This document shows positions 39,370 through 42,000 of a DNA stretch of 64,000 nt, piece by piece. The stretch lies in the NCBI GenBank assembly GCA_029266455.1, contig JAQSWV010000007.1, positions 1 to 64,000 on the forward strand, in the 5' to 3' direction. A program made the position numbers and the translations under genes. The DNA is from Nocardioidaceae bacterium. GTDB lineage: Bacteria; Actinomycetota; Actinomycetes; Propionibacteriales; Nocardioidaceae. Every line of letters starts with the position of its first letter. Within the stretch, counting starts at the first letter, position 1. Below the pieces are notes generated by a model that was not told the DNA's origin, did not search any database, and saw nothing but the letters and a program-made list of their open reading frames with translations.

Positions 39370-39375
39370 TACCCT
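39370..39375 (+). promoter_or_regulatory. Possible -10 element of the leuS leader transcript
   Basis: TACCCT lies 7 bp before the GTG of the leader peptide, so the transcript would begin at or next to that GTG (leaderless). No good -35 is visible. Confidence 0.4.
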
Positions 39376-39382
39376 GGCCCAC

Positions 39383-39409
39383 GTGCCTAACGACCTGCTT
39401 CTCGCCTAG
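39383..39409 (+). CDS. Leu-rich leader peptide (MPNDLLLA) upstream of leuS
   Basis: An eight-codon frame GTG-CCT-AAC-GAC-CTG-CTT-CTC-GCC-TAG encodes three leucines in a row, using three different Leu codons. It is followed by a hairpin CCGTCC/GGACGG (39417-39432) and then by an intrinsic terminator (39440-39466), 87 bp before leuS. This is the layout of ribosome-mediated transcription attenuation: stalling at the Leu codons for lack of charged tRNA-Leu would let an alternative structure form and transcription pass into leuS. The peptide itself is not expected to have a function. Confidence 0.6.
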   Translation: MPNDLLLA

Positions 39410-39439
39410 ACGCGGACCGTCCACCAGGACGGCGCGCCT

Positions 39440-39466
39440 GCCCCTCATGACCTGAGGGGCTTTTTT
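39440..39466 (+). terminator. Intrinsic terminator (attenuator) before leuS
   Basis: GCCCCTCA pairs with TGAGGGGC across a five-base loop, followed at once by TTTTTT. This is the clearest Rho-independent terminator in the window, and it lies just upstream of leuS rather than after an operon, so it is best read as an attenuator. Confidence 0.85.
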
Positions 39467-39495
39467 CTGCCAGGAGGAGCGGACAGGAGGTTGGC

Positions 39496-42000
39496 GTGAC
39501 CAGCCAGCAGGACAGCACCCCGGCCAGTGAGTCGCATGCGCCGACCGCGCGTGCGGTATACGACGTCCATGCCGCCCAGGAGAAGTGGCGACCGGTCTGG
39601 GAGCGGCTGGACCCGTTCCGGGCCCTGGACGACGGCAGTCGTGAACGACGCTACGCGCTGACCATGTTCCCGTACCCGTCCGGAGACCTGCACATGGGTC
39701 ACGGCGAGGTGTTGGCGCTGCACGACGTCCTGGCGCGGTACTGGCGGCTGCGGGGATACGACGTCCTGAACCCGATCGGGTGGGACTCGTTCGGGTTGCC
39801 GGCCGAGAACGCCGCCATCCGGCGGAACGAGCACCCGGCGGTCTACACCTACGCCAACATCGAGACCCAGGCCGAGTCACTGCGCCGCTACGCCATCAGC
39901 TTCGACTGGTCCCGCCGGCTGCACACCTCTGATCCCGACTACTACCGCTGGACGCAGTGGCTGTTCCTGCGGTTCCGCGAGGCCGGGTTGACCGACCGGC
40001 GGGCCAGCTACGTCAACTGGTGTCCCAACGACCAGACCGTGCTGGCCAACGAGCAGGTGGTCGGCGGCGTCTGTGACCGGTGTGGCGCGGTGGTGACCAA
40101 GCGCGAGCTGACCCAGTGGTACTTCCAGATCACGCGGTACGCCCAGCGGCTGCTGGACGACATGGAGATGTTGCAGGGGCGCTGGCCGGAGCGGGTGCTG
40201 GCCATGCAGCGCAACTGGATCGGCCGCTCCGAGGGAGCCTTCGCCGACTTCGCGGTCGAGGACGACGGCGAGCCGCTGCGCGTCTTCACCACCCGCCCCG
40301 ACACGTTGTTCGGCGCGACCTTCATGGTGGTCGCTCCCGAGTCGCCGTTGGCCGCACGACTGGTGTCCGCCGGACAGCGGGGCGCGTTCGAGACCTACCT
40401 GGCGCAGACACAGCGCGCCACCGAGATCGAGCGGATGTCGACCGAGCGACCCAAGACCGGTGTCTTCCTGGGCGCGTACGCGACCAACCCGGTCACCGGC
40501 CGGCAGATCCCGATCTGGGCTGCCGACTACGTGCTGGCCGACTACGGCACCGGGGCCATCATGGCCGTGCCCGGACAAGACCAGCGGGACTGGGACTTCG
40601 CGGCGGCCCACGACCTACCGATCGTCCGGACGGTGCAGCCGCCCGATGGTTTCGACGGTGAGGCGTACGTCGGGGAGGGCGTGGTCGTCAACTCGTCCAA
40701 CGACGAGATCAGCCTGGACGGGCTGGGCGTCGAGGAGGCCAAGGCGCGGATCACCGACTGGCTGGAGGCCAAAGGCCTGGGGGAGCGGACGGTCAACTAC
40801 CGGCTGCGCGACTGGCTGCTGAGCCGCCAGCGCTACTGGGGGTGCCCGATCCCGATCGTGCACTGCGACGCCTGCGGGGAGGTCGCCGTGCCGGACCAGG
40901 AGCTGCCGGTCGAGCTGCCCCACCTGTCGGGCACCGATCTCGCCCCCCAGGGGACGTCACCGCTGGCCGCGGCGACCGAGTGGGTGCAGACCACGTGCCC
41001 GTCATGCGGTGGCCCCGGCCGTCGCGACACGGACACGATGGACACCTTCGTGGACTCGTCGTGGTACTTCCTGCGCTACTGCTCGCCCGGCTACGAGGAC
41101 GGTCCGTACGACCCCGAGGTGGCCAACCGGTGGATGCCGGCGGCGAACTACTTCGGTGGCGCCGAGCACGCGGTGCTGCACCTGCTGTACTTCCGGTTCT
41201 TCACCAAGGTCCTGCACGACCTGGGCATGCTGGATGCTGTCGAGCCCACGTTGTCCCTGATCACGCAGGGTCAGGTGATCAACCTGGGCAGGTCCATGAG
41301 CAAGTCGCTGGGCAACGGGGTCGACCTCGGCGAGCAGCTGGACCGCTTCGGCGTCGACGCCGTCCGGCTGACCTTGGTGTTCGCCGGGCCGCCGGAGGAC
41401 GACATCGACTGGTCCGACCTGTCGCCCGGCGGCTCGCTGCGGTTCCTGCAGCGCGCATGGCGGCTGGCCCATGACGTCACCAGCCCCCCCGAGGCCGATC
41501 CGGCCGCCGGTGCCGAGGACCTGCGGCGGGTGACGCACCGCACGGTGCGAGAGGTCGAGCAGCTACTGGACACCCGCCGCTTCAACGTGGCGGTGGCCCG
41601 GATCATGGAGCTGGTCAATGCCTCCCGGCGCGCGGTCGACGCGGGTCCCGGTGGCTCCGATCCAGCCGTGCGCGAGGCCGTGCAGGTGGTGGCGCAGCTG
41701 CTCAGCCTGGTCGCGCCATACACCGCCGAGGAGATGTGGGAGCTGCTGGGTCACGAGCCGACGGTGGCGACGAGCGCCTGGCCGGAGGTCGACGAGCGGC
41801 TGCTCGTCGAGGACACCGTCACCTGCGTGGTGCAGGTGCAGGGCAAGGTGCGTGCCCGGCTGGAGGTGGCCCCCGACATCGGTGCCGCAGAGCTGGAGGA
41901 GCTGGCGCTGGCCGACCGGGCCGTCCAGCGCCTGGTCGACGGGGCGCAGGTCCGCCGGGTCATCGTGCGCGCACCCCGCCTGGTCAACGTCGTGCTCTGA
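39496..42000 (+). CDS. leuS: Leucyl-tRNA synthetase
   Basis: Class I synthetase charging tRNA-Leu. The 834-residue protein has HMGH at residues 66-69 ([15 protein letters not shown]), the [12 protein letters not shown] block, the CP1 editing domain with [17 protein letters not shown], the tRNA-binding [13 protein letters not shown] region, and the signature loop [10 protein letters not shown] at about 598-607, where the usual first Lys of KMSKS is Ser. GTG start with AGGAGG 6-11 bases upstream. Expression is probably governed by the leader just upstream. Confidence 0.96.

Follow-up and report, generated by a model that had tools for sequence, protein, structure and literature searches.

A conserved leucine-codon leader, hairpin and terminator upstream of leuS in Nocardioidaceae, a probable ribosome-mediated transcription attenuator

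We identified a compact leader unit immediately upstream of the leucyl-tRNA synthetase gene, leuS, in a 64,000-nucleotide stretch of a Nocardioidaceae genome (the whole stretch analysed is referred to here as the window). The unit is most probably a ribosome-mediated transcription attenuator of leuS. Judged by sequence comparison, most Nocardioidaceae genomes carry it ahead of leuS. We predict that leucine shortage would very probably cause more leucyl-tRNA synthetase to be made.

All features of the unit lie on the forward strand. A -10-like element, TACCCT (39370..39375), is separated by a 7-nt spacer from the GTG of a leader open reading frame, GTG CCT AAC GAC CTG CTT CTC GCC TAG (39383..39409), which encodes MPNDLLLA and contains the sensor codons CTG CTT CTC (39395-39403), a Leu run that is kept in relatives. 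These features were read directly and are as the original prediction had described them. The frame is followed by a hairpin, P1 (39411..39436), with the loop ACCA and the pairings CGCG 39411-39414 with 39433-39436 and CCGUCC 39417-39422 with GGACGG 39427-39432; P1 was delineated by RNA folding, in which its lower register is slightly different, and by covariation in relatives. Next comes an intrinsic terminator (39440..39466), GCCCCTCA-TGACC-TGAGGGGC plus TTTTTT, with its stem at 39440-39447 and 39453-39460, its loop at 39448-39452 and the six Ts at 39461-39466. The order of a hairpin and then a terminator of 8-bp stem, 5-nt loop and six Ts before leuS had likewise been claimed and was read directly; folding and covariation also recovered the terminator. 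The Shine-Dalgarno sequence AGGAGG (39485..39490, read directly) precedes the GTG start of leuS at 39496 (39496..42000), whose product of 834 amino acids was assigned to the leucyl-tRNA synthetase families by a family search. In RNA folding, the leader stretch of the window folds better than shuffled sequence (z -2.4).

TANNNT near a start codon at a 6-nt spacing is frequent by chance in the window, so the weight of the -10-like box rests on its conservation. No other strong terminator appeared when 20 kb around the leuS leader were scanned. In a crude scan, terminators made of a hairpin and a T-run were otherwise almost absent from the GC-rich stretches of loci L001-L028 and the window, which makes the attenuator terminator conspicuous. 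A motif close to RTGYCCGG lies directly 3' of the T-run in most relatives, is weak in the window (39467-39476) and also follows several terminators upstream of cimA; too few other terminators were available as a control for this motif (a first, over-strict scan gave none).

Comparison of leuS upstream regions in relatives, the check suggested with the original prediction, showed that a Leu-codon run before a terminator is kept. The start set comprised 80 loci with LeuS, among which 31, mostly from Nocardioidaceae, had at least two consecutive Leu codons in the leader; an alignment of 28 of these leaders and the window gave the covariance model R1. At E<=0.001, R1 matched 100 of 121 family genomes and 211 of 395 class genomes, counts that are upper limits because weaker matches precede other genes. 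Tallied by hand among the matches listed, 82 of the family genomes had matches at E<1e-12 and about 138 of the class genomes at E<4e-9. Of the 74 elements fetched outside the family, 72 have LeuS downstream, and the remaining two (L112 and L128) gave no LeuS match.

From all loci we drew a comparison set of 148 distinct elements, selected for LL in the leader peptide and, beyond the first 31, also for a -10-like box 4-9 nt upstream. Selection therefore accounts in part for these two features, but not for codon choice, the sharpness of the spacing at 6-7 nt, the terminator or covariation. TANNNT stands 6-7 nt before the leader start in 147 of the 148 elements, a sharp peak that marks them as leaderless by sequence, and a terminator is present in every one. 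Spacing, Leu run, hairpin and terminator are each shared by 147-148 of the 148 homologous elements; the predicted leader peptide, leaderless-type start, Leu codons and terminator are strongly conserved at the sequence level. By this comparison, the leader-terminator unit before leuS is not a chance arrangement.

Genomes lacking the unit were consistent with this. In 22 leuS upstream regions from such genomes, we detected no hairpin with at least four Ts within 400 nt, and the pattern named as contrary to the original prediction, a terminator kept where the Leu codons are lost, was absent from these regions. In several of the unit-free genomes leuS itself appears to be leaderless, and one locus (L152) has an apparent decayed leader before leuS, with no terminator. 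Another group (L163-L177, many genomes of genus g19 of the family, and others) encodes a longer LeuS that is only ~40% identical and has no unit. This combination suggests that the gene may have been replaced and its control lost along with it.

The sensor codons show a strong bias. The last Leu codon of the leader is CTT in 129 of the 148 elements and CTC in 16 (CTY in 145), and it is CTT in 112 of 130 when each leader peptide is counted once. By comparison, the leuS genes at these loci use CTT for 38 of 4233 Leu codons (0.9%). The middle Leu codon is CTC or CTT in 126 of the 148. In theory developed for E. coli, the codons found in leaders are the ones read with the greatest sensitivity to supply, and they are often, not always, rare (PMC1183508). 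The geometry is fixed as well. In 136 of 144 elements P1 begins 5 nt past the last Leu codon. The stop codon falls one codon (TAG, 39 elements) or four codons (TGA, 89 elements) past the Leu run, which in most elements places the end of the leader within the P1 5' arm or directly ahead of it. Going by these positions, the P1 5' arm is within reach of a ribosome at the sensor codons, as in a classical hairpin 1:2.

Both hairpins covary. Across 74 elements aligned to R1, standard pairs occupy 99.2% of the cells of P1 and the terminator. Changes on both sides of a pair number 64 versus 10.5 in shuffles, with none of 500 shuffles as high, in an alignment fitted to the tested structure, which favours that structure. 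Mutual information over all alignment columns, an unbiased measure of covariation, revealed coherent helices only at P1 (extended to ~11 bp) and the terminator, and no third helix.

A third helix is what a textbook attenuator would call for, and the original prediction had proposed that 39409-39432 might pair alternatively with a terminator arm. The pairing probability of the terminator with and without a ribosome was considered as a test and rejected, as most E. coli attenuators keep the terminator at equilibrium. It was replaced by the energy gain of structures that engage a terminator arm while a ribosome is held on a sensor codon. For the E. coli controls, the best sensor-codon values were -13.7 (thr), -9.3 (trp), -8.4 (leu), -7.1 (pheM) and -6.0 (his) kcal/mol; the gains for the first three are clearly larger than in their own shuffles, those for pheM and his only marginally so. 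For the 148 leuS elements, pairing of the upstream arm under a stalled ribosome averaged -1.3 versus -3.3 kcal/mol in shuffles and fell below -5 kcal/mol in just one; the gain in the window was 0.0 kcal/mol, and the proposed alternative pairing is not above chance there. The terminator arm on the U-run side showed no pairing above chance either, in the leuS elements or in the window. A classical antiterminator (2:3 versus 3:4) thus seems to be absent from the leuS unit; given the relatedness of the elements and the approximations of the energy model, this is evidence and not proof.

These results bear on a trp-type attenuator with a hidden antiterminator, in which stalling would free the P1 3' arm or loop for a terminator arm through a pairing too weak or variable for the folding model. 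The layout of leader, hairpin 1:2 and terminator 3:4 is classical, antiterminators are drawn for Streptomyces leuS units by Seliverstov et al. 2005 (PMC1262725), and an antiterminator between the P1 loop and the terminator has been proposed for the Corynebacterium ilvB-II motif (PMC10272879). However, the test that made the thr, trp and leu antiterminators of E. coli clear, and his and pheM marginal, found none in the leuS units; pairing of their terminator arms with upstream sequence is weaker than in shuffled controls, and no covariation marks a hidden antiterminator. We consider this reading rather unlikely.

Under ribosome-mediated attenuation, the reading we prefer, transcription would have a leaderless start at or beside the GTG at 39383, and the leader would be translated without a Shine-Dalgarno sequence. 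With ample charged tRNA-Leu, the ribosome would read MPNDLLLA and depart, P1 would fold, and the polymerase would stop at the U-run (39461-39466). When charged tRNA-Leu is scarce, the ribosome would stall on the Leu codons, waiting foremost for the GAG isoacceptor, the expected reader of CUU/CUC. With the last Leu codon in the A site, the leading edge of the ribosome would reach ~9 nt past the codon and cover the foot of the P1 5' arm. P1 would then not close fully and, we propose, read-through would let more polymerases enter leuS. No mutually exclusive antiterminator was found that would link an opened P1 to less termination.

One route for this link would be a tandem of P1 and terminator, in which efficient termination depends on P1, or P1 serves as a pause hairpin, and a stalled ribosome lowers termination simply by opening it. 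The gap between P1 and the terminator is 0-2 nt in 137 of 144 elements. A UG step 10-12 nt 3' of P1, the distance expected for a hairpin-stabilised pause, occurs in 109 of 144, versus 27% with shuffled loops. Against the tandem, G at -10 is not enriched, UG is missing from the loops of the cimA units described below, and neighbouring structure can reduce termination, as cited in a terminator study (PMC8355165). We regard this route as a serious possibility that falls somewhat short of probable.

Control of translation and not termination is very unlikely. It would have the Leu run pair with purine-rich RNA past the terminator or with the leuS Shine-Dalgarno sequence, like the leuA LEU element, and in the MFE structure of the window CUGCUUCUC is indeed paired with sequence just 3' of the terminator. 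Over the 148 elements, however, Leu-run complementarity is barely above controls (mean percentile 0.62 versus shuffled sequence; 13.6 versus 12.9 in swapped leaders), and the conserved terminator would be left unexplained. According to PMC1262725, the leuA LEU element resembles the present unit in carrying a Leu-codon run before a leucine gene and differs in having a pseudoknot, a base stem at the Shine-Dalgarno sequence, and Leu codons reported to have no regulatory effect. A starvation frameshift at a hungry CUU, by which the ribosome would pass the stop and unfold the terminator, is less probable still. Of the shifted frames with a later stop found, 106 of 113 and 110 of 125 run open as far as the terminator, but there is no clear excess, since 81-83% of shuffled GC-rich sequences are open and the two counts were made differently; in the window, both shifted frames end inside the terminator. 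The ileS gene is under T-box control in some actinobacteria, as stated in PMC1262725. At the gathering thresholds of Rfam 15, the single match in the window is a tRNA away from the leader, with no T-box before leuS, and the chance that a T-box riboswitch or other known RNA family accounts for the unit is negligible.

The original prediction knew of no established attenuation of leuS in actinobacteria; in this respect it was anticipated. Seliverstov et al. 2005 (PMC1262725) had predicted leuS attenuators for S. avermitilis and S. coelicolor, and RNA-seq of S. lividans TK24 mapped the leuL2 leader MRAVRLLLSEPR as leaderless with a terminator after it (PMC8079986). R1, which was built without any S. 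lividans-type unit, recovered MRAVRLLLSEPR exactly before leuS in one locus (L181; E 1.2e-16 per genome). Going by the alignments, the window unit is homologous in sequence and structure to the Streptomyces leuS units; as the Streptomyces attenuator was both predicted and mapped by RNA-seq, and R1 finds the same peptide, the window unit belongs to a known type. It shares with that type (PMC1262725; leuL2, PMC8079986) a short frame with a predicted leaderless start, a Leu run, a hairpin and a U-run terminator; it differs in occurring in Nocardioidaceae, in a TAG one codon past the Leu run and in a bulged P1. An antiterminator of the kind proposed in the 2005 work (PMC1262725) has no support in the present tests. 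The conserved leader, leaderless-type start, terminator and, at the level of sequence, putative Leu sensing of the original interpretation are retained, and its novelty and classical alternative pairing are not.

Other known attenuators are similar in part. Those of E. coli trp, leu, thr, his and pheST, the last a tRNA synthetase operon as in the leuS case, share the cognate-codon leader, a hairpin over the leader end and an intrinsic terminator, whereas the leuS leaders are leaderless by sequence, mostly of 8-12 codons, and have no antiterminator pairing above chance. The actinobacterial ilvB-II motif of the Corynebacterium ilvBNC leader has an upstream frame, P1 and a terminator P2, and differs in its amino acids, its gene and the antiterminator proposed between the P1 loop and P2 (PMC10272879). 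That article also cites work from 2010 on the attenuation of genes for aminoacyl-tRNA synthetases. In a comparable S. coelicolor ilvB leader, altered regulatory codons had no effect, as cited in PMC1262725, which counts against reading the leuS unit as an attenuator.

A parallel unit occurs elsewhere in the same genome. At G000:C8 10963-11048 (L131, L280), a leader with Ile codons at its end is followed by a GCGCG hairpin, a terminator and then a gene for citramalate synthase (cimA), named by reading the protein sequence and not by a family search. Ile units of this type with the geometry of the leuS unit are widespread in the class (also L132-L141, L143, L146-L149 and most of L266-L316). At E<=0.001, a covariance model of 16 cimA-type units, R2, had matches in 157 of the 247 class genomes, cross-hits to leuS and ilvB units included; among 50 fetched loci with a downstream match, 46 precede cimA and four ilvB, a few places having been fetched twice. 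The structure of the cimA unit covaries. ATT is the last sensor codon of 29 of 43 leaders; among the Ile codons of cimA genes it accounts for 58 of 909. No antiterminator was detected in the 14 cimA units tested (mean -0.7). Comparable units lie before ilvB (L142, L144, L145, L150, L283, L297, L312, L315), and the leaders of the first four carry Leu/Val codons ending in GTA; the ilvB-type unit is a known kind of attenuator in actinobacteria. Tentatively, we speculate that leuS, cimA and perhaps ilvB of actinobacteria form a leaderless attenuator class acting without an antiterminator, in which a stall on a rare synonymous sensor codon at a fixed 5 nt before P1 opens the P1 foot, the loss of P1 being enough by itself to weaken the terminator next to it.

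Three features were not found in the literature: the rare CTT as last Leu codon of leuS leaders; the covariation of only two hairpins with no antiterminator above chance, unlike E. coli attenuators in the same test; and the parallel Ile-codon unit before cimA, for which the literature searched, partial in coverage, contains no description and so gives weak evidence of novelty. Leucyl-tRNA synthetase across a large share of actinobacteria, beyond Streptomyces, appears to carry one conserved leader switch. The textbook antiterminator is apparently missing from this switch, which poses a testable question: what converts a stalled ribosome to read-through? Two independent handles on it are the rule of a rare codon at the final sensor position and the sibling unit before cimA.
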